IMG/VR virus record: IMGVR_UViG_3300027872_000027
Span: 1-21,652 of that record
Reading direction: 5' to 3' (one strand)
DNA length: 21,652 nt
Source of the DNA: a virus
In this document: positions 2,568-12,802 of the stretch, piece by piece
Layout of the letters: each line of letters starts with the position of its first letter
Position numbering within the stretch: the stretch's first letter is position 1
Notes under the pieces: model-generated
Seen by the model: the letters and a program-made list of their open reading frames with translations, nothing else
Told to the model about the DNA's origin: nothing
Database searches by the model: none
Program-made: the position numbers and the translations under genes

Positions 2568-2796
2568 CCAGCGCGAACAATGGACCAAGTGGCCCAAACA
2601 TCTGACTGCGCCCACAAAGCAGGACATGAATTATCTGGATCGCTTAGATCCTCCCATCGGCAGAGCTGTCTCTCCTGGTGGTCGCATACGAATCATACGG
2701 CACCCAGAGTTTGTCTGGTACTACGACGCAGGACACTCCACAACCTTTAGCCAGCTCCTGTTTAAGGACGGGACTGAATGGAGGCTCAGGAGGTGA
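2494..2796 (+). CDS. Small protein of unknown function
   Basis: I do not recognise this protein. From 2494 it is 100 residues and basic, with aromatic-rich C-terminal strands (RIRIIRHPEFVWYYD, then TFSQLLFKDGTEWRL), suggesting a small beta domain. The start is uncertain: ATGs at 2494 and 2506 overlap the methyltransferase gene by about 60-75 bases and lack a strong ribosome binding site, while an ATG at 2626 would leave only 56 residues. The stop (2794-2796) overlaps the start of the polymerase gene at 2778. Its place between methylase and polymerase suggests it belongs to the replication operon; nothing more can be said. Confidence 0.55.
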   Translation: MRNIMRWLQNRFGKQRDSLLFKPSDQREQWTKWPKHLTAPTKQDMNYLDRLDPPIGRAVSPGGRIRIIRHPEFVWYYDAGHSTTFSQLLFKDGTEWRLRR

Positions 2797-4496
2797 ATCT
2801 ACCGCAAGTATCTTTTAGCTTGCGTCCTCAGGTTCGCCCCCGTGGAAATCCTCGTCCCAAGATACTCATCGTTGGTGAAGCTCCAGGTAAGAACGAAATA
2901 GAAGCTGGCCTGCCATTCGTCGGCGCTTCCGGCCACGAGTTAGGCTTTCAGCTTGCGGAAGCAGGCATAGAAGAAGAAGATTGTCTGTTCACGAACGTCG
3001 TCAACTTCCGCCCGAAAGATAATCTAATCTCCGAGTTCTTTGCTACCTCCAAGAAGAAGGCAGCAGAGATAGGAGCTATACCTTACTGCGGTAAGTATGC
3101 ACTTCCTATTGTCTTTGCAGGTATGCAGGACTTGGAGAGCTTGATCGCCCGCGTCAAACCTAACGTCGTTGTCGCTTGTGGTAACATAGCTTTATGGGCA
3201 TGTACTGGTGAGCAAGGAATCCTCAAGTGGCACGGCTCAGAGATGGAAGGACAGATCAATGAAACAAAGTTCAAATGTATCCCTGTCATTCACCCGGCGG
3301 GTATTCTTCGTAATTGGTCTTGGCGTTGGTTTACTGTTGTTGATTTTCGTCGCGTTAAGCGTGAGGGGGATTTTCCAGAATTGCAACGACCCGGATATTG
3401 CTTTACCATCAGGCCTTCCTTTTCTGCTGTGGTGGATCGTTTACATACTTTATATGACCGCGTGGATATGGCCCCCTATAAACTCGCGGTGGACATTGAG
3501 ACTCGGACTCGTCACATTGCTTGCATCGGTATTGCTTGGAGTGCACATCACGCAATTTGCATCCCTTTGCTCTGTATAGAAGATGATGAAGGATATTGGT
3601 CTAAAGAAGAGGAGGTTGAAATCTGGTGGTTACTATACCGACTGCTAACGCACAAAAACTGCGAAGTCATCGGCCAGAACTTTATGTACGACAACCAGTA
3701 CTTCGTTCGTCGAGCTGGCTTCGCCTGCAATCTCGTAGACGATACCATGATGAAGATGCACGTGTGCTTTCCAGGCGCCAAGAAAGGACTAGACTTCATC
3801 TCCTCTGTCTTCTGCAAGTACCACCGTTTCTGGAAAGAAGAAGGGAAAGAGTGGGCAAAGAAGATGGACGAAGATGTCCTCTGGGAATACAACTGCAAGG
3901 ATGCCGTCGCAACCTACGAGATAGATGGAGCCTTAAACGAATTACTTACCAAGTTCGACTTGTGGCCACAATATCACGAGCGCATGCGCACTGGCGAGTC
4001 AGCTTTCAAAATGATGTTGCGTGGCGTCGATGTATCGCTTACATTCAAGAAGCAACTATTCAACGATTGCGCGAAAGCGATAAATCAACGCAAAGACTTC
4101 TTATGGGAGATACTTGAGATAGATATGTTTGGGCCGAAGGGCGGAGTTTCTCCTAAGAAGATGAAGATGCTCTGCTATGATCTGTTCAAGCTGCCGCCGA
4201 AGTACAGGATAGATCCTGCTACGAAACAGCGCCGCCTTACCTGTGACAAGGACGCCATCGATGAGTGGATACAGACCTGTAATATCTTTTTCCGTCCGAT
4301 CCTTAAAATCATAAAGGACGTTCGGTCTTTAACCGTATTCAAGAGTACCTTCGCGGGTGCTCCGCTTGATTGGGATGGAAGGTTCCGCTGCAGCATGAAC
4401 GTCGCCGGTCCTCACACCTTCAGGTGGAGTACCTCTGAAGATGCTTTTGGTTACGGAACCAATATGCAGAACATACCGAAGGGAGATGAAAGATGA
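2778..4496 (+). CDS. UDG-like domain fused to family A DNA polymerase, N-terminal part of a split polymerase
   Basis: A 572-residue protein. Residues about 28-195 resemble family 4/5 uracil-DNA glycosylases: GEAPGKNE at 33-40, PFVGASG at 46-52, and the HPA motif at 172-174. The N-terminal CxxC of the Fe-S members is absent. Residues about 230-400 are the 3'-5' proofreading exonuclease: DIE at 239-241 (Exo I), N301 to D305 (Exo II), and YNCKDA at 371-376 (Exo III), so the four acidic metal ligands appear present. The chain ends with FRWSTS (548-553) and NMQNIP (562-567), the element just before motif A in family A polymerases. Motifs A-C are absent and lie in the gene at 5225. AAGGA at 2764-2768 supports the start. 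The stop overlaps the next ATG as ATGA. SPO1-type phage polymerases also carry a UDG-like domain. Confidence 0.85.
   Translation: MEAQEVNLPQVSFSLRPQVRPRGNPRPKILIVGEAPGKNEIEAGLPFVGASGHELGFQLAEAGIEEEDCLFTNVVNFRPKDNLISEFFATSKKKAAEIGAIPYCGKYALPIVFAGMQDLESLIARVKPNVVVACGNIALWACTGEQGILKWHGSEMEGQINETKFKCIPVIHPAGILRNWSWRWFTVVDFRRVKREGDFPELQRPGYCFTIRPSFSAVVDRLHTLYDRVDMAPYKLAVDIETRTRHIACIGIAWSAHHAICIPLLCIEDDEGYWSKEEEVEIWWLLYRLLTHKNCEVIGQNFMYDNQYFVRRAGFACNLVDDTMMKMHVCFPGAKKGLDFISSVFCKYHRFWKEEGKEWAKKMDEDVLWEYNCKDAVATYEIDGALNELLTKFDLWPQYHERMRTGESAFKMMLRGVDVSLTFKKQLFNDCAKAINQRKDFLWEILEIDMFGPKGGVSPKKMKMLCYDLFKLPPKYRIDPATKQRRLTCDKDAIDEWIQTCNIFFRPILKIIKDVRSLTVFKSTFAGAPLDWDGRFRCSMNVAGPHTFRWSTSEDAFGYGTNMQNIPKGDER
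3247..3251 (+). promoter_or_regulatory. Possible internal ribosome binding site inside the polymerase gene
   Basis: AAGGA, within GGAAGGA, lies 7 bases before an ATG at 3259 that opens a 106-codon frame offset from the polymerase frame. It may be chance, but spacing and sequence match the other sites in this window. Confidence 0.35.
3259..3579 (+). CDS. Candidate overlapping gene for a three-helix membrane protein
   Basis: A 106-residue frame lying wholly inside the UDG-polymerase gene, over the UDG-exonuclease linker. The product has a polar, basic N-terminus (MKQSSNVSLSFTRR), then three hydrophobic segments at about 15-36, 50-70 and 78-96, separated by charged or proline-containing loops. 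An AAGGA site sits 7 bases upstream of the ATG. Over polymerase codons 3300-3362 the third base is T in 16 of 17 codons that end in T or C, while the stretch 3663-3746 has 6 T to 16 C by hand count. The polymerase third base is the second base of the embedded codons, so this bias is what makes the product hydrophobic. It may be selection for the overlapping protein or only a local composition shift. Holin-like or other membrane roles are guesses. Confidence 0.35.
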   Translation: MKQSSNVSLSFTRRVFFVIGLGVGLLLLIFVALSVRGIFQNCNDPDIALPSGLPFLLWWIVYILYMTAWIWPPINSRWTLRLGLVTLLASVLLGVHITQFASLCSV

Positions 4497-4699
4497 AAGC
4501 AAAGCTAATGCGTTTCTTGTGTGCACTAATTAAACTCACGCTTGGCATAGTAACAATCATTATCATAACTGGCACTTTGGGATGGCTTATAATTACATTT
4601 CCCGTAATAGGATGGATCTATATGGGAACTGTAGGAAGCTTGTTCCTTGCTGGAAGTTTCGCTATAGCTTGGAACTCGTGCGCTCCTAAAGCAAAGTAA
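4493..4699 (+). CDS. Small two-helix membrane protein between the polymerase halves
   Basis: A 68-residue protein with a basic N-terminus (MKAKLMR) and hydrophobic segments at about residues 8-37 and 41-60, ending in a short basic tail (CAPKAK). It is most likely an inner-membrane protein; no family is recognised. The ATG overlaps the stop of the upstream polymerase part as ATGA, and GGGAG at 4481-4485 gives a good binding site. The Lon-like gene starts two bases after its stop, so the two probably form a unit. The gene is visibly richer in A and T than its neighbours, which fits separate acquisition. It could anchor or regulate the adjacent protease; that is inference from position only. Confidence 0.65.
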   Translation: MKAKLMRFLCALIKLTLGIVTIIIITGTLGWLIITFPVIGWIYMGTVGSLFLAGSFAIAWNSCAPKAK

Positions 4700-4701
4700 C
4701 C

Positions 4702-5241
4702 GTGCCCACCGCGAAGTCCATAGTCCTCCTCGGCGATACTCACTTCGCGCTCACCGTCCGTGCGTACTTCCGCGACGGGAACGGTCAACTGTACATAACT
4801 GGTACACTAGGTCAGGAGATTCAAATTGCGCTACTTGCCGCCATCGGAGCTATTAACGAACTTGATTCATATATCGACGGCTTCGACCCAGCGATATTTG
4901 CTGAGCGGAACCTCCACATCAAGATTGATGTTAGCGACGTGGCTAACCTACCTGTTGTCGGAGAAAGCTACGGTCTTGCTTTGTCAATGGCTATACTCGC
5001 AGCAGCAGTACAGAAGCCTATCCCACTCGACCTCGTGTTTGCTGGATGCATCGGCCCAGCCGGAGAAGTCTTACCAGTTGGTGGAATTAAAGACAAAAGA
5101 AAAGCCGCGAAGAAACTAGGCTTCGCAAGGATCATGCTCCCGTGCTCGCAACTGGACATGATGAATAATGAGATAACACAGTGTCCTGTCAAGGACGTAA
5201 AGGAGGCGTTCTCTGTAACGTTCCATGATGAGCCAAGTTGA
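4702..5241 (+). CDS. Stand-alone Lon-type (S16) serine protease domain
   Basis: A 179-residue protein aligning with the C-terminal proteolytic domain of Lon. LYITGTLGQEIQ (30-41) matches Lon's tYTGsLGevmq strand. NLHIKI (70-75) precedes GESYG (87-91), at the place of Lon's GPSAG, giving Ser89 as nucleophile. FAGCIGPAGEVLPVGGIKDK (113-132) matches the segment whose Lys, here Lys130, completes the Ser-Lys dyad. There is no N-terminal substrate-binding or AAA+ ATPase domain, so it cannot unfold proteins by itself; it may cleave peptides, act with another ATPase, or process one specific target. The start is GTG, two bases after the membrane-protein stop; the 3' end overlaps the downstream polymerase part by 17 bases. 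RadA/ComM-type Lon-like domains are an alternative, but they usually lack the catalytic residues seen here. Confidence 0.8.
   Translation: MPTAKSIVLLGDTHFALTVRAYFRDGNGQLYITGTLGQEIQIALLAAIGAINELDSYIDGFDPAIFAERNLHIKIDVSDVANLPVVGESYGLALSMAILAAAVQKPIPLDLVFAGCIGPAGEVLPVGGIKDKRKAAKKLGFARIMLPCSQLDMMNNEITQCPVKDVKEAFSVTFHDEPS
5201..5206 (+). promoter_or_regulatory. Strong but distant ribosome binding site for the downstream polymerase part
   Basis: AGGAGG is the best ribosome-binding match near the 5225 start but lies 18 bases upstream, much farther than usual. The in-frame TAA at 5216-5218 excludes an earlier start. Translation may instead rely on re-initiation after the overlapping Lon-like gene. 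Confidence 0.35.
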
Positions 5242-6025
5242 CTCCTTCATACCTGAGATTTCGGACATAGCGCACTTTATTAAACCCAACGTGCGCTTGA
5301 TGTTCGTTCCGGACATAGGCTACACCATGTTCGATGCAGACCTACGCCAGTCTGACGCACAAGTAGTTGCGTGGGAAGCTGGCGACGCGACCCTTAAAGA
5401 AATGTTCCGTGAAGGCATCGACCTCCATCATCAAAATGCAATCGACATATACCAGCTCCAATCCCCTCCTTCCCCTCATCAAAGACAAATGGCCAAGCAT
5501 GGTGTACATGCTACGGACTTTGGCGCACACCCACGCACTATGGCGAAGAAGCTCGACATGACAGTACAGCAGGCATCGAGCTTCCAAGCCCGATGGTTCA
5601 AGCTACATCCAGCCATTAAGAAATGGCATCAGCGTGTAGAGAAGGAACTCATGCGGACACGAACAATCAAAAATGCCTTCGGCTACCGAAAGATCTTCTT
5701 CGACCGGGTCGAGAGCATCTTGCCTGAAGCTCTAGCCTGGGTGCCACAATCGACCACAGCCAACGTCATAGACAAAGGCATTAACAACATCGACGAACAC
5801 CTTCCTGAAGCTGTACTGTTCCTGCAAGTCCACGACTCCTGCCTCGGCCAATTCAAGAACGAACTCTATCCCACTATCCGCAAGCAAATCCACGACCACA
5901 TGCTCATCACCGTTCCGTATGACGATCCACTCGTAATTGAAGTGGACGTTAGTTGCTCAAGAAAGTCATGGGGGAACTGCACGAAGGTTCCTCTAGCAGA
6001 CGATAAACAATTTTGTCCGTTTTAG
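5225..6025 (+). CDS. Family A DNA polymerase, C-terminal catalytic part of a split polymerase
   Basis: A 266-residue protein holding the catalytic palm and fingers. RLMFVPD and FDADLRQSDAQ (36-46) form motif A, with catalytic Asp37. RQMAKHGVHATDFGA (87-101) is motif B (O-helix), with R87 and K91 at the conserved dNTP-contact positions and Phe99 where many polymerases have Tyr. QVHDS (201-205) is motif C, with catalytic Asp204. Exonuclease, thumb and the NMQNIP element are in the gene at 2778, so activity should need both chains to assemble. The first about 20 residues are not recognisable as polymerase and may be new sequence gained at the split. Two adjacent ATGs (5225, 5228) are possible starts. 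The TAG stop lies inside the next gene's TAGGAG binding site. Confidence 0.85.
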   Translation: MMSQVDSFIPEISDIAHFIKPNVRLMFVPDIGYTMFDADLRQSDAQVVAWEAGDATLKEMFREGIDLHHQNAIDIYQLQSPPSPHQRQMAKHGVHATDFGAHPRTMAKKLDMTVQQASSFQARWFKLHPAIKKWHQRVEKELMRTRTIKNAFGYRKIFFDRVESILPEALAWVPQSTTANVIDKGINNIDEHLPEAVLFLQVHDSCLGQFKNELYPTIRKQIHDHMLITVPYDDPLVIEVDVSCSRKSWGNCTKVPLADDKQFCPF

Positions 6026-6276: not shown

Positions 6277-7500
6277 TTGGCCCGCAACGTATCCAACTGG
6301 CTACAAGGATACATCGAGTACACGAAGCACTTAGAAGCTCCAGATATCTTCCACCTTTGGACTGCCATAGGTACAATCGCCGGAGCGCTACAAGGCAAGG
6401 TCTGGATAGATCAAGGCTACTTCAAATGGAAGCCTAACTTCTTTGTCATCTTCGTTGCCCCACCGGGGGTTGTAAGTAAATCCACAACTCTCGGCGTGGG
6501 CATGGAGATGCTTCGCAAGGTCGATGGAATCCATTTCGGCCCTGAGTCCGCTTCGTGGCAAGCGGTTACGGATGCGTTTATCGAAGCAACTGTCACAGTA
6601 GAAAAGGTCGGACAAATGTCCGCTCTAACAATTGAAGCCTCGGAACTTGGCACCTTCCTAGACCCACGCAACAGAGAGATGATCGACGTTCTCTGTCGCC
6701 TCTGGGATGGACGCGAAGTCCCTTGGCATAGGAGAATACGGAGTGAAGGTGTCAGCGAAATCCCCAACCCCTGGATCAACTTTCTTGGATGTACTACTCC
6801 GGGCTGGATTGAAGAAAACTTCCCTGAGTACGCGATTAGGGGTGGCTTTACGAGTCGCACGGTTTTTGTTTATGCCGAGCGGAAACGACAATTTGTTGCT
6901 TATCCGAAGCTCCGCATGGACGTTGCTGGCGACGAATTCCGACGACTTCGCGTACATCTCATCAACGACCTTAAAACAATCGCCAAAGTTACAGGTGAAT
7001 ATATACTCACAGAATCTGCAACCACCTGGGGTATAGAATGGTACGAGAAGCACTGGACAGAAGAGAAAGGCGACATAGATATGGAACTCTACGGTGGATA
7101 CATCGCCCGAAAGCAGACCCATATCCACAAGGTCGCTATGGTTCTTGCGGCGGCTCGGCACTCGGACTTAATAATAACGGATGAGAACTTGCAAGCGGCG
7201 GAAAAACTTGTCACGAGCCTAGAGCTTTCCTTGCCGAAAGTGTTCTCGCAGATCATGGACTCAAAGGATGCGCAAAATACGGCGACCGTGATTCGTATAG
7301 TACAAGCTTGTCCCAGCGGAATAAAGCGTCGTACCTTGTGGCGGAAGCTCATCACCTACATGTCACAAGACGAGTTCAAGCATTCTGTCATGGGAGCAGT
7401 AGCTGCAGACTTTATTGCAGAATACTCAGTCGGAGATGAGATCTTCTACAAGCCTATTGTTGAGGAGCGCCCTCAGGAAAAGCCTCCTCCAGGTCCTTGA
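6277..7500 (+). CDS. DUF3987-like phage replicative ATPase
   Basis: A 407-residue P-loop ATPase-like protein related to DUF3987/primase-helicase-type proteins of phages and plasmids. The N-terminus (WLQGYIEYTKHLEAPDIFHLW) fits the family's opening. A Walker A-like loop APPGVVSKSTT (61-71) has Ser instead of Gly before the Lys. ALTIEASELGTFL (116-128) is a Walker B/sensor-like strand. GGFTSRTVFVYAERK (189-203) carries the conserved arginine of the family. It probably acts in replication initiation or as a helicase. The start must be the TTG at 6277: an in-frame stop at 6265-6267 blocks extension and the next ATG is about 75 codons on, past the Walker loop. The C-terminal tail is proline-rich and overlaps the convergent virion gene by 47 bases. 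Confidence 0.7.
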   Translation: MARNVSNWLQGYIEYTKHLEAPDIFHLWTAIGTIAGALQGKVWIDQGYFKWKPNFFVIFVAPPGVVSKSTTLGVGMEMLRKVDGIHFGPESASWQAVTDAFIEATVTVEKVGQMSALTIEASELGTFLDPRNREMIDVLCRLWDGREVPWHRRIRSEGVSEIPNPWINFLGCTTPGWIEENFPEYAIRGGFTSRTVFVYAERKRQFVAYPKLRMDVAGDEFRRLRVHLINDLKTIAKVTGEYILTESATTWGIEWYEKHWTEEKGDIDMELYGGYIARKQTHIHKVAMVLAAARHSDLIITDENLQAAEKLVTSLELSLPKVFSQIMDSKDAQNTATVIRIVQACPSGIKRRTLWRKLITYMSQDEFKHSVMGAVAADFIAEYSVGDEIFYKPIVEERPQEKPPPGP

Positions 7501-10500
7501 ACAATCCTCTAAACGCCTTCTCGCTTGGCACGCCAATCTCGCGTAGGTGCCCGCGACGGAACCGTTCACGAACGCTCTGCTTAAGTTTCTTCGAGTCGAT
7601 GCGCAGTCCCGCCGCGGGCGCTTCCTTATTAAACTTTCGCAGACGCTTCAGAGCCATTTCCAGCCCTTCCTTATCTTCCTGGATTATTGCCCAAGCATAG
7701 TTCTCCATCACGGCAGTGTGCCTTGCAACCCAGTACCGTTTCAGTTCTTCTTGACTATGCCGAAGTTCAAACCTCTGATTCACCCGCGTCGTTGCAAAGC
7801 TGAAGAACTGTGCGACGTTCTCCATTCGCTGCTCGATATCCAGCGGATTAAACTTCACTACAGCGCCGCCGCCACGGAAGTTTTCTTCCTCCCTATGCTG
7901 CCGTCGTATCGACTTACTTATTCCCTGCATCGATGTAGGCAGCGCACGCTCCCAGACTTTCCAGGTATCTGGATCATCGCTGTCGAGAGCCTTGATAATA
8001 TTAAACCCCACTCCCATAACTGGCCCTAAAACCTCAGCCATTGTCCGACCAAGTTTCGCGTTCGGATCTCTCTCCTCTCCCAAGAGTGCTTCCGTTCCAG
8101 GAATGAATCTACCGGCTGATAGGCTCCCAGATATGTCTACATTCGGCACTGGTACACCAAGCAGTCCTAGCAAATGCAGTGGTCCGAGACCATAATTCCT
8201 GGACAGTCCATGCATTATGAGGTCTGGTCTATCTGTAAGCGTACTAACGAAGTCGCGTAGATCTTCACGCAACGTAACCTGTGGGTCTTTCAGACCTAGA
8301 AGCTCCTTAGCTTCCGTACCGCCAAAGTCCAAGATATCAAAGATGTTCTCAGCAAATGGAAGTCCTTGCAGTCCAGCCGCAAGCAATAACATCACCCAAA
8401 CCCTCGCGGCTGGGCCCTTGCCTTCTCCGCCATAAGCCATAAAACTTAAGTGCTGCATGAATTGCCAGAACAAGAACAGAACGCTCTTCTTTCCGCGCAT
8501 GAATGCTGGTCTGTTCCACTTCGAGTACTCAAACATCGTGGCCTGGACAGCCTTTCGTGCTGCCTTATACGCGGCTTCCTGATCGTTCGGATTCTTCTTT
8601 AGTGCCAACTCTCTTGCAGCAATGAACGTAACCTCACGATTGAACTTCTCTGCGTGCTTAAACAAGAAGCTTCCGTAGAAAGCAATATCGTTTGTTAGCT
8701 TAACCTTGCGATCTGTCGGCATCAGCCGTTGTAAGTAATCGCTCTCACCCAACCCTGCCATCGACGTCGCATAGGATTGATCAAGGATACCTTCGGCTAT
8801 ACCTCGCTGCAAGTGTGCGTCTGTCTCATTGTCAAAGACAAGTTTGCCTGTTCGCCACTTGACAACATCACGCATACTCCGTAAGAGTGCAGCTGTCGCC
8901 GTAGCGTCTCCATAGTGATGAGCCAGGAATGGATATGCAACCATCGGAACCTGTGTCAGATTGACAACAGCCGACTTGACATTGAACCCGAGATAAAACA
9001 GGAATCCCCACGAGCGGGCCGTAGCCCAATCATTCTCGGGATTCATGATGTATCTAAAGTGATCGTTGAAGTAATTCTGTACGATGCCCGCCGTAGTTGC
9101 TTGTTGTTCTGCTTGCGTAGACCCACGCACCGCCGAGCGCATTTGGTCCTGCGCAATAGCCATATCTTCACCGAACTCAATTCGAGCTACGTGGTGAGAC
9201 GCGTTCATCATGTATGTGGCAAAGACACGCAGCGCGTCAGTGCTATATCCTTCGATACCCTTGTGTCTTGTTAGGTGCCGAAGGAAAGCTTTGCCGGGGC
9301 TGTATCGAAAGAAAAGTTCCTTTAGCGCAGTCTTCTGCTCATCCGAAAGCGGAGCTAGCCTAGTCTCCAGTGCGTCGAATAGCGCAGGCGGCATGCCTAA
9401 GTAGGCATACTCTTCGTTAGATACATATCCTTCAAAGAGCTTGAACCTGTTCTGATCCTTAAACTGTGCAGCCAGTTGCGGACGGCGAGCCGCGCGAGAG
9501 TCTTGCGTATCAAAGGTCTCATAGCTAACCACTTCGCCAAGCACAGACTTGCCTTCCTTAGTTACCCTTGGGCCTTTGAACTTTCTGCCGTTATAAGTAA
9601 TGTCCCTTGTAGCCCGCACAATGCTCGCGTACTGCCCGAAGCGCATCCTTGGAAAGTAATTCCTATCACGAAGATGCGCCATCTCATTTTCAATTTGAGA
9701 GAGCTTTGCTCCAAGCTTAAAGTGTTCAAGTGTTGGACTGGCCGCAATAGATTCCATGAATGCCTTGCGGCCCGCTTTGGATTTATCTTTCTCCCATAGC
9801 GTGAGTAATTCTTCTGCTCTCTGCTTTGGATCAGTAGACTTTCTTGCCGCCTCACGAAATGCTGCTTTTTCAAGTCCTCTTTGTACGAGGTTCAGTGTCT
9901 CATCGAAAGCCTTCCCTACCTTCTTGAACATCTCGAATACTGTCTTCGACGCACCAAGCTTTCGCATGAGAACTATTTCTTCTTCTTGTGTCAACTTCCG
10001 TTCTAGAACATCGCTCTGCTCCATGGCTTCTAACACCGCTTGTGACAGTACCTGCTGTTCCTTTGCAGGTAGAAGCGTCCACTCATGTGCCAGCTTATCC
10101 GGACCACGTATTAGTGTTCCCACTCGAGCAGACCATAGCTGAACTGTCTCGATATATGCACTCGATCCGAGAATGGGCCGCACCTCTGACAGCTGCAATG
10201 GCGTCAGCACCTTGGTCAAGAACTTTGTGCCCCAGACCTTCAAGAGTGATTCAGCTGGAGGCAGTATCGCGTCGATATTTTCTTGTCCAGCTACTCGCAT
10301 GAATGCATCATTCGACAGATGGCTGATTAACCCGCCCCTATTCCGTCCCGGAATCTGCCCCGATAAAAACCGCGACACATCACGCAGCATAAATCTAAGA
10401 TCACCATCCGTGAATTTCATCCTAGGTGCGATCTTTCTAAGAGCCCGTCGAAGGGCTGCAATTACTCTAGCTAACAGGGTCTGGTCTGTGCCGTTCTCTG

Positions 10501-12802
10501 CTATCTCGGCTATGAACTCTTCAGCAAATCTTAACGCTTCACTTTGATCACGTGGTACACCGAACTTAGACTGGATTTCCTGTCCGCGCGTACGATATAC
10601 TGTTTCCAAAAGACTGCGCAGCTCCTGTGGAGAAAAGAATGCGCGCAGACCTTGATGCCCTAACACTTCGTGGGCAAATGTCTGCACTACATCACGTGCG
10701 TCTGCATGCCTGTCAGCAAATATGTAAATACGTCCAGGCTCATCTAAGAAGAACGCACCCTTCGCCTTGCCTTGCACTGCACGCTTGCGTGGTGAGTCTT
10801 TTGGAAATAAGTTCGTGTCCTTTGAGTCAGCGACAATAACTTCCGGACCGGCAGTCAAATTGCTCGCCAATGCACGAACTATTTGTGTCACCTCGTCGAC
10901 GCTCATCTCTTTGGCGCCGCGTGGAGCTTCCGTACGCTCCCGCACGACACGCTCGTCTTGTGTTTCTAGCTCCGTTACTTGTTCGGCTGTGAGCTTTTTG
11001 TCTGGGACAACCTCTGCGCCTTCGCGTTTTGCGACAAGTTCTCGTCTAAAGGTCTCGTCTTCATCCGCGAGGGAACGGCGAGTTCTTTCTTCTTCGAGCT
11101 GGTCAAGGATTGCAGATTCCGCAGTCGTAAGTCTCGAATCCGGTCGAATGCTTCTTTTCGCAGCTTCCTCCGCATTAAACGTAGGTAACTGTTTTTCGGC
11201 ATCTCGTATCTCCTGAGTGATCTGCTGCGTCAGTGGGTTGGGTAATCCCATGCGCTCGCTCAGCGCTTCGATACGTTTGTTGAGCGCTACGATACGCTTC
11301 TGTGCTGCCTTTGTTAGCTGCCCATCAGCCTTCCGCCGCAGCTCAGGAGCCAAGAATATATCATCCCTCATTTGTACGAGTGTCTGAATTACCGGCGGCA
11401 ACTGACGCTGTGCTTCTCCCGATACGGGTATCTCGTGAGTGTCCGTGATGACCGCAGTTCCACGTGCGTCGTCAATTTGGACAATCGCTTGCTGCATTGG
11501 TGTGCGTTGCAGCTCTGGCGTCTGTCGGATCGCGTTTGCGGCAACCGTCTGTGTATCGGGGTCGTTCGGGAACGCAATCCCGTCGTCCGTAAACACCATC
11601 GCGACTGGCAAATCTTGTCGCGGTTCACGCCCTAGTGCCTGCGCTACACCTTCCGCTACAGCAGTGCCTGTGCGCGGTGTGTCTAGTGATACTGGATAGC
11701 TAGCTGTTTCCACACCAGGTGGCAATACAACACCCTCTGGCGTAACACGTAGCGCGGGTGCAGGAAGTAGTTTCGGTCCATCATTTAAGGCCGTAGGATT
11801 GGCCGCTTCCTCGCCAGTAGTCAACTCTTCTTCGGTGGCCGCTCGCATCTGACCAGACGGACGAGCAACTGCTGCCGGGATACCTAACAACCCGAATGCT
11901 GCCGCGCCACCAGCCGCATTCAGCAGTTGGCTCTTTTCTTCTGGAGACAGCTCACCCTCAAATTGTTGGATGCTACGATCGAGTGAGATATTTATTATCT
12001 CTTGAGCAACTTCTGTCGGAACCTCATAGGCTATCAATGTTCCGACATTACCAACGGCTCGTCGTATGAATCCACGCTCGACAAGCTGTCCAGCGATCTT
12101 TGTCTGCACTGCTTCACCGAGCTTAATCCCCTTTAACAAACCAAGCCTTCTTGCCAGCACTGTGATCGGAACGAAGTCCAGCGCGCCCTTGCCAAGTCCA
12201 CTTCCGACAACTCTTAGGTCTAATGGATCAGCTCCTGCTTCAGTAGCAATCTGAGCGCTTTCACCAGTCTGTAGGCCGACATCCGACAAGAACGCCGCTA
12301 TAGTACCAGTGGCTTGTTTTCGTGCTGCTAGTTCTGCAGCAGCTTTTGCTCCGCCTGCCTTGAGTGCGCCCCGTCCAGCAAAACCAGCGATCTTCGCAGC
12401 CGTTAAGCCTGGGATCGCAATACTTGCAAGCAGTGGAGCATTTTCAATAATGCTCTCAAGCGCGAAGATGCCAGTATCCACTGGACCTTTTATATCTTCG
12501 ACACGGGGCACTCTTCGTGTAATTGCTCCAGCTTCTTCTGATAGCTCAGCCGCGCGATTGTAAAATCCTTGTGCTGCCTCGTCGTAACCAAAAACATCTG
12601 CGACTAGCCCGCCCACCGCCGTGAAATCAGACTGAACAGTCTTCAGCCCGCGCTTGAACGGAGCACCAAAGAACCCCGGTTCCGGTTCAGGTTCCGGTCC
12701 GCCCAACGCATTTAGCGATACACGGACGCGTCCATCAGGCAGGCGCTGTGGAGGTATAGGATCTCTTTCTGCTAGAAACTCTTCTAGGGAAACTAATGGC
12801 AT
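7454..12802 (-). CDS. Giant PLxRFG-type internal virion/ejection protein with HEXXXH peptidase-like motif
   Basis: A 1782-residue protein, the largest gene here and the last of the virion operon. The motif FPRMRFGQY (1050-1058) matches the PLxRFG signature of giant phage proteins that are packaged and probably injected with the DNA. Hydrophobic stretches occur at about 112-150, 250-312, 1264-1298 and 1466-1492, fitting an ejectosome component that meets the cell envelope. HEVLGH (711-716), with an acidic helix EEFIAEIAE (761-769) downstream, suggests an embedded zinc metallopeptidase-like domain. A PEPEPEPG tract is at 36-43. Residues about 320-640 are low-complexity and charged, probably coiled or disordered; the last about 130 residues are basic. 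The ATG joins the upstream stop as TAATG, with GGA 7 bases upstream. Structural role is likely; peptidase activity is inferred. Confidence 0.75.
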   Translation of the reverse strand: MPLVSLEEFLAERDPIPPQRLPDGRVRVSLNALGGPEPEPEPGFFGAPFKRGLKTVQSDFTAVGGLVADVFGYDEAAQGFYNRAAELSEEAGAITRRVPRVEDIKGPVDTGIFALESIIENAPLLASIAIPGLTAAKIAGFAGRGALKAGGAKAAAELAARKQATGTIAAFLSDVGLQTGESAQIATEAGADPLDLRVVGSGLGKGALDFVPITVLARRLGLLKGIKLGEAVQTKIAGQLVERGFIRRAVGNVGTLIAYEVPTEVAQEIINISLDRSIQQFEGELSPEEKSQLLNAAGGAAAFGLLGIPAAVARPSGQMRAATEEELTTGEEAANPTALNDGPKLLPAPALRVTPEGVVLPPGVETASYPVSLDTPRTGTAVAEGVAQALGREPRQDLPVAMVFTDDGIAFPNDPDTQTVAANAIRQTPELQRTPMQQAIVQIDDARGTAVITDTHEIPVSGEAQRQLPPVIQTLVQMRDDIFLAPELRRKADGQLTKAAQKRIVALNKRIEALSERMGLPNPLTQQITQEIRDAEKQLPTFNAEEAAKRSIRPDSRLTTAESAILDQLEEERTRRSLADEDETFRRELVAKREGAEVVPDKKLTAEQVTELETQDERVVRERTEAPRGAKEMSVDEVTQIVRALASNLTAGPEVIVADSKDTNLFPKDSPRKRAVQGKAKGAFFLDEPGRIYIFADRHADARDVVQTFAHEVLGHQGLRAFFSPQELRSLLETVYRTRGQEIQSKFGVPRDQSEALRFAEEFIAEIAENGTDQTLLARVIAALRRALRKIAPRMKFTDGDLRFMLRDVSRFLSGQIPGRNRGGLISHLSNDAFMRVAGQENIDAILPPAESLLKVWGTKFLTKVLTPLQLSEVRPILGSSAYIETVQLWSARVGTLIRGPDKLAHEWTLLPAKEQQVLSQAVLEAMEQSDVLERKLTQEEEIVLMRKLGASKTVFEMFKKVGKAFDETLNLVQRGLEKAAFREAARKSTDPKQRAEELLTLWEKDKSKAGRKAFMESIAASPTLEHFKLGAKLSQIENEMAHLRDRNYFPRMRFGQYASIVRATRDITYNGRKFKGPRVTKEGKSVLGEVVSYETFDTQDSRAARRPQLAAQFKDQNRFKLFEGYVSNEEYAYLGMPPALFDALETRLAPLSDEQKTALKELFFRYSPGKAFLRHLTRHKGIEGYSTDALRVFATYMMNASHHVARIEFGEDMAIAQDQMRSAVRGSTQAEQQATTAGIVQNYFNDHFRYIMNPENDWATARSWGFLFYLGFNVKSAVVNLTQVPMVAYPFLAHHYGDATATAALLRSMRDVVKWRTGKLVFDNETDAHLQRGIAEGILDQSYATSMAGLGESDYLQRLMPTDRKVKLTNDIAFYGSFLFKHAEKFNREVTFIAARELALKKNPNDQEAAYKAARKAVQATMFEYSKWNRPAFMRGKKSVLFLFWQFMQHLSFMAYGGEGKGPAARVWVMLLLAAGLQGLPFAENIFDILDFGGTEAKELLGLKDPQVTLREDLRDFVSTLTDRPDLIMHGLSRNYGLGPLHLLGLLGVPVPNVDISGSLSAGRFIPGTEALLGEERDPNAKLGRTMAEVLGPVMGVGFNIIKALDSDDPDTWKVWERALPTSMQGISKSIRRQHREEENFRGGGAVVKFNPLDIEQRMENVAQFFSFATTRVNQRFELRHSQEELKRYWVARHTAVMENYAWAIIQEDKEGLEMALKRLRKFNKEAPAAGLRIDSKKLKQSVRERFRRGHLREIGVPSEKAFRGLFKDLEEAFPEGAPQQ

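Follow-up and report, generated by a model that had tools for sequence, protein, structure and literature searches.

The fission of a gene for an essential enzyme is usually regarded as a rare accident or as the trace of a homing nuclease. Split polymerases are already known in phages. In T4-related phages, gene 43, encoding the family B polymerase (PolB), is split into 43A and 43B (PMC2988022). In Aeromonas phage Aeh1, nrdA is split by mobE, and its halves form an active enzyme (PMC2988022). A family A polymerase (PolA) in two open reading frames (ORFs), with a small unknown ORF between them, is found in the OM43 phages MEP401 and MEP402 (Zobellviridae), for which an intron was suspected, though the question was not settled (PMC10580990). 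Here, a split family A DNA polymerase is described in the virus record IMGVR_UViG_3300027872_000027. The window, i.e., the whole stretch analyzed, is this 21.6-kb record (21,652 nucleotides; it may be a fragment), in which a gene for a membrane protein and a gene for a Lon-like protein lie between the polymerase halves.

Each of these systems shares some features with the window. As in the window, the polymerase of 43A/43B is a replicative enzyme made from two genes, sometimes with other DNA between them, but it belongs to family B and the insert is a homing endonuclease or is untranslated. In Aeh1 a core enzyme is likewise split by inserted DNA; however, this enzyme is a ribonucleotide reductase and the split is a single homing-endonuclease event. 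MEP401 and MEP402 share with the window a split PolA, a small ORF in the gap and a Shine–Dalgarno (SD)-like sequence, GGAGAATAACATG, at the junction; in MEP401, GGAG precedes the next ATG, as in the splits of the window type. Their cut, however, comes about 15 residues later, immediately in front of motif A (NLQNFDGEIKTLFLSRYGE and a stop codon, then MILNADAK), and they belong to another phage group. The cultured Vibrio phage VS-ABTNL-3, whose locus comprises genes PVS_27-29, is cut at the same loop as the window (NLQNLPKGDG and a stop codon) and shares its gene neighbourhood, including a methyltransferase gene upstream, but its cargo is a 184-aa protein matching PHROG 8380 instead of Lon. It is one of the 58 splits counted below.

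The gene anatomy of the window was confirmed to the base by ORFs and by sequence and profile searches. The N-terminal half of the polymerase (N-half; 2778..4496, plus strand, 572 aa) comprises a uracil-DNA-glycosylase (UDG)-like domain, the 3'-5' exonuclease and the polymerase as far as NMQNIPKGDER, and its C-terminal end reads GTNMQNIPKGDER before the stop codon. Its Pfam matches are UDG (2.2e-24) and DNA_pol_A_exo1 (2.8e-8), and it matches PHROG 17 (DNA polymerase) at 1.4e-35. The C-terminal half (C-half; 5225..6025, plus strand, 266 aa) extends from motif A (FDADLRQ) through motif C (QVHDS) to the end of the enzyme and matches Pfam DNA_pol_A at 1.5e-27 (profile positions 138–379 of 381, from just ahead of motif A to the end). 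The exonuclease domain and motifs A and C thus follow in order across the two chains, as in family A. The halves cover consecutive parts of PHROG 17 (positions 476–989 and 995–1243), so almost no part of the polymerase was lost in the split. The original prediction, made from the letters alone, had placed a clean division between NMQNIP (4496) and motif A (5225) with all motifs kept on both sides, and ORFs, Pfam and PHROG 17 agree on this.

The junctions it had read are also exact. The stop codon of the N-half overlaps the ATG of the 68-aa membrane gene in ATGA (4493–4496), two bases (CC, 4700–4701) separate the latter from the Lon-like gene, and the Lon-like gene overlaps the C-half by 17 bases (5225–5241). 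AAGGGAG (4479..4485, plus strand), formed by the last polymerase codons (K-G-D), is the predicted SD for the ATG at 4493. AAGGAGG within the Lon-like gene (5200..5206, plus strand), another predicted site, lies 18 bases ahead of the ATG of the C-half; since this is distant for a classical SD, translational coupling over the 17-base overlap would be more likely.

Relatives were collected by a viral-contig scan with the C-half and by four further scans. Since two scans used queries derived from split sequences, the sample of 218 distinct loci holding both halves, 160 fused and 58 split, is partly seeded with splits. All 58 splits fall between NLQN(I/L)(P/T) and PN(I/V)R, in the loop after NLQNIP, and breaks elsewhere in the gene occur in 5 loci only. 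Motif A and C patterns are present in 58/58 split C-halves (motif B was left out, its pattern being too narrow). The independent contig L001 has the same gene order as the window at about 50% protein identity (C-half, 55%): an N-half ending NLQNIPKGDER, ATGA, a 76-aa gene, the Lon-like gene and the C-half. The N-half end of the window is common to L001 and other split relatives. With the order repeated in L001 and the site shared by 58 splits, the split of the window is not due to chance or misassembly. In Microcystis phage Mel-JY34 and in MW202489 the polymerase is one uninterrupted gene. Intact relatives, which the original prediction had recommended looking for, therefore exist, and the unusual character of the site stands.

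A split was counted as cargo-free when fewer than 100 bases, without cargo, separated the motif ends. Among the 57 split representatives of the tree set, 17 are cargo-free, with overlapping or abutting genes and motif ends 23–76 bases apart, and 40 have a larger gap. The gap genes were assigned to families by Pfam and PHROG scans: dUTPase (4), pyrophosphatase-like (4), Lon_C (3: the window, L001 and L026), HNH nucleases (L008, L119, L318 and, by profile, L050), DUF7768 (2), methyltransferase (2), DUF3310, helix-turn-helix proteins and many unknowns. The dUTPase, pyrophosphatase/MazG-like, HNH, DUF7768 and methyltransferase families also flank the polymerase, upstream or downstream, in relatives, including the fused ones. 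HNH relatives of the L119 cargo were observed directly 3' of the polymerase in L154, L228, L057, L206, L125, L035, L198 and L235. The longest cargo seen, in a 1.8-kb gap (L007:4177-6005), includes a Mom-like DNA modification protein and an RNase_T-like exonuclease.

On an IQ-TREE tree of 130 representatives the fused/split trait requires 17 changes, versus 42.7 with shuffled labels, and strongly supported branches alone force 8 changes. With irreversible fission and a midpoint root, 19 events are obtained. In three-state Mk models, the path from fused through cargo-free to cargo-bearing beats direct cargo insertion by 7–9 log-likelihood units. This preference holds for every threshold and root and for both trees tried; allowing direct insertion adds nothing, and re-fusion is not needed. 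Single cases illustrate both steps: the cargo-free L032 lies within a clade of 22 whose other members are all fused, and L222, with a 58-aa cargo, is nested among the cargo-free L226, L213 and L241.

In an alignment with Taq polymerase, the split point falls on the loop NLQNIPVRTPLGQRIRRAF. In fused relatives the linker at this point is mostly 18 to 75 bases long (156 in one). An AlphaFold model of a fused relative, built on an alignment from metagenome loci only, has a mean pLDDT of 89 with its minimum (49–74) over residues ~511–560. The split point is located in a coil between strands 524–526 and 572–578, with no regular structure. Even in fused genes, the codons after NLQNIP pair well with the anti-SD (about −5.7, against about −2.3 in other parts of the gene), since AAR-GGN-GAN are the codons of K-G-D/G-E. 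When the gene is split, the K-G-D-E codons form the SD for the next ATG. Their anti-SD duplex (−7.27) is stronger than under synonymous resampling (−6.00, p 8e-6); the value for fused genes (−5.73 versus −5.81) is not significant, and that of the window is −8.4 against a synonymous null of −6.2. GGA accounts for 34/58 glycine codons in split and 14/83 in fused genes (p 3e-7), and the ATG lies 7–8 bases past the SD core in 30/52 split genes. From the duplex strength, the choice of GGA and the ATG spacing, the loop seems to be prone to conversion into a gene boundary, with a ribosome site that selection tunes after fission.

The split, its recurrence at one site, the cargo-free cases, the kept motifs, the SD codons and the favoured order of events are matters of observation. 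They are probably explained by recurrent fission through an internal translation start, the halves reassembling as protein and the gap becoming an ordinary operon junction. The point of departure would be a variable and weakly structured loop with purine-rich SD-like codons (P-K-G-D/G-E), which links NLQNIP to the motif A strand of the palm. A stop codon and a nearby ATG could make this loop a gene boundary that has a ribosome binding site of its own. The polymerase would then be produced as two chains, one carrying the UDG-like domain, the exonuclease, the thumb and the start of the palm, the other motifs A, B and C, and both would reassemble without the peptide bond. Such a boundary could act as any other junction of a replication operon and gather small genes. 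A stand-alone Lon-type peptidase gene would have settled in the gap in the common ancestor of the window, L001 and L026, and the gene for the two-helix membrane protein would later have joined it there in the lineage of the window.

Several points weigh against this explanation. The share of 58 splits in 218 loci is not a natural frequency, given the seeded sample. The backbone of the tree is weak, with 42/127 inner branches open, and no more than the 8 changes mentioned are forced. Phylogenetic pairing keeps the direction of the SD effect (GGA in 5.1 versus 0.6 of 8 pairs); with a median p of 0.125, however, this test has little power. The loop codons of L026 lack an SD, and the C-half of L001 lacks an ATG start, TTG or GTG being inferred. 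Formation of an active enzyme by the two chains is likewise inferred, with nrdA of Aeh1 as the precedent.

The Lon-like gene (4702..5241, plus strand, GTG start) encodes 179 aa and corresponds to a stand-alone Lon (S16) proteolytic domain (Pfam Lon_C, 1e-17). The catalytic dyad of E. coli Lon is Ser679/Lys722. In the window protein, the dyad is formed by Ser89 (codon 4966–4968, in PVVGESYG) and Lys132 (codon 5095–5097, the second lysine of GGIKDK), and its spacing of 43 residues matches that of Lon. The dyad is invariant in the three Lon-like relatives (window, L001 and L026) despite 32–41% overall identity. A profile from the three proteins finds solved Lon proteolytic domains at ~1e-14, with RadA and BrxL far behind. 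The 179-aa chain contains Lon_C only, with no AAA+ ATPase such as ATP-dependent Lon has in the same chain. An AlphaFold model from the three sequences (pLDDT 36) is too poor to judge geometry. From the dyad and the profile matches, the protein is probably an S16 peptidase that is active or was so until recently. A Lon domain separate from the ATPase-type enzyme is known from Bacillus YlbL, which combines a membrane helix with a Lon and a PDZ domain (PMC6051672). The window protein shares this domain with Lon and YlbL by profile and Ser-Lys dyad but has neither ATPase nor PDZ domain and is encoded by a phage within a polymerase locus.

The Lon-like gene was found in these three relatives only, always in the gap. 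Their polymerases form one clade (support 100), which is also recovered by the N-half alone (98) and the C-half alone (90); neither half was thus replaced from outside. A viral-contig search with the Lon-like query alone gave no match, and one with an alignment of a Lon pair gave L001 only. In genome contigs, the trio gave one weak partial match, in Paenibacillus (35% over 84 residues). In phage records, the matches (about 25–36% identity) are to RadA entries or to contigs without annotation.

The 68-aa gene (4493..4699, plus strand) encodes two predicted membrane helices (KD-19 hydropathy maximum 2.48, two hydrophobic stretches) and has no match in Pfam or PHROG. A two-helix membrane protein and a Lon-like domain between the halves, as the original prediction had it, are thus present. 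The membrane gene is seen in the window only: L001 has at its position the 76-aa gene, without hydrophobic helices, and in L026 the Lon-like gene is the sole gap gene. The membrane gene is therefore lineage-specific cargo, probably a late addition to the gap, and the membrane/Lon pair is not a conserved unit.

The other explanations concern the origin of the split and the role of the cargo. An intein-split polymerase was rejected: the N-half stops 5 codons after NIP, and neither half has an extra domain. Splitting by a mobile nuclease or a group I intron, as in Aeh1 nrdA or SPO1, with the nuclease later replaced by the Lon and membrane genes, is improbable. Gene-splitting insertions of homing endonucleases are documented in T4-like phages (PMC2988022), and HNH nucleases do occupy the four gaps listed above, one of them by profile, but this amounts to only 3–4 of the 40 cargo-bearing relatives, and members of these HNH families are also located elsewhere around the polymerase. 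By Pfam and PHROG no homing nuclease was found in the gap of the window, filled by the membrane and Lon-like genes. No Rfam family, and hence no intron core, was matched at the gathering threshold in 10 loci (the window and 9 relatives). The cargo-free splits and the Mk models, which place fission before cargo, also disfavour both this origin and a homing-endonuclease split of the Aeh1 or gene 43 type. The idea of a former intron site reused, contained in the original prediction, is therefore not supported. The membrane/protease pair as a unit is not supported either, the membrane gene being seen in the window only; the clean split, the kept motifs and the translation restarts in place of splicing hold. 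Since introns were not found in these loci, starts are mostly proper and some splits are cargo-free, splicing of RNA or protein is unlikely, and two assembling chains are most likely. Programmed frameshifting or ribosome hopping could, at least for cargo-free splits, produce a single chain from both halves, as the short overlaps in L014, L042, L128 and L269 would allow. It is very unlikely, because most C-halves carry their own ATG, at SD distance when cargo-free, and in the window a hop would have to cross 0.7 kb of other genes, which is implausible. A misassembly, sequencing frameshifts or a decaying polymerase can be considered scarcely credible: apart from the absence of reads nothing favours them, whereas the arrangement is common to independent contigs, the motif A and C patterns are kept throughout, starts and SDs are properly positioned and the breaks cluster in one loop.

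With regard to the cargo, the Lon-like protein could be a working partner of the split polymerase (a subunit, a processing or a turnover factor), cassette and split being one module. Its restriction to the gap in all three clade members, the dyad kept at such low identity and the close translational coupling speak for this. Other split polymerases, however, manage without it, and a single acquisition suffices to explain its placement, so such a role is rather unlikely. A dedicated partner serving assembly, turnover or a replication-stage switch, with fission selected for separate regulation of the halves, would be a doubtful assumption. A two-component module, in which the membrane protein is the anchor or substrate of the peptidase, would agree with the two-base spacing of the genes and with the membrane-linked Lon domain of YlbL (PMC6051672), but it is quite improbable given the absence of the membrane gene from L001 and L026. 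Recurrent fission with later, ordinary filling of the gap remains the preferred explanation.

The surroundings of the locus show further features. The UDG-like domain (2778–3320) fused to the polymerase N-terminus is also present in the fused relative L003 and is thus not special to split genes. Upstream (1287–2567), a ParB_N-like domain is fused to an N6_N4 DNA methylase; a similar gene precedes the L001 polymerase, and the named relatives have methylase genes there. The C-half is followed on its 3' side by a 79-aa gene and a DUF3987/primase-like gene. On the opposite strand (7454–12802, minus), a 1782-aa protein contains the zincin-like motif HEVLGH and matches nothing in Pfam, and L001 has a long opposite-strand gene at the same place. 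Elsewhere in polymerase genes, a second, rarer fission site was seen towards the end of the exonuclease domain (QWKPDKAAWKAGG and a stop codon), with overlapping frames, at L017:4280, L035:3247 and L062:3818, and the breaks of L079 and L264 are at yet other positions. The fused relative L141 alone has an intein-like in-frame insert of ~320 residues (7629–8754) at the HG/TNY site of motif B, a position different from the fission loop.

In the open-access papers searched, no description of repeated PolA fission at this loop and no discussion of the VS-ABTNL-3 split were found. The following appears to be new: so many cuts within a single loop, cargo-free intermediates and their order, a ribosome site at the level of codons and, in one clade, a Lon peptidase that stands alone and is kept in the gap. 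The same loop of a replicative enzyme was cut again and again, often without any insert, and fused, overlapping, short-gap and loaded-gap genes form a series in which the path from a single gene to two can be tested. Naturally two-chain polymerases of family A would be a useful scaffold for split enzymes. The finding also explains possible mis-annotation of the polymerase genes of such phages as truncated or intron-bearing. Within a large group of uncultured phages, an enzyme at the core of replication seems, where its gene has been cut, to function in two pieces.

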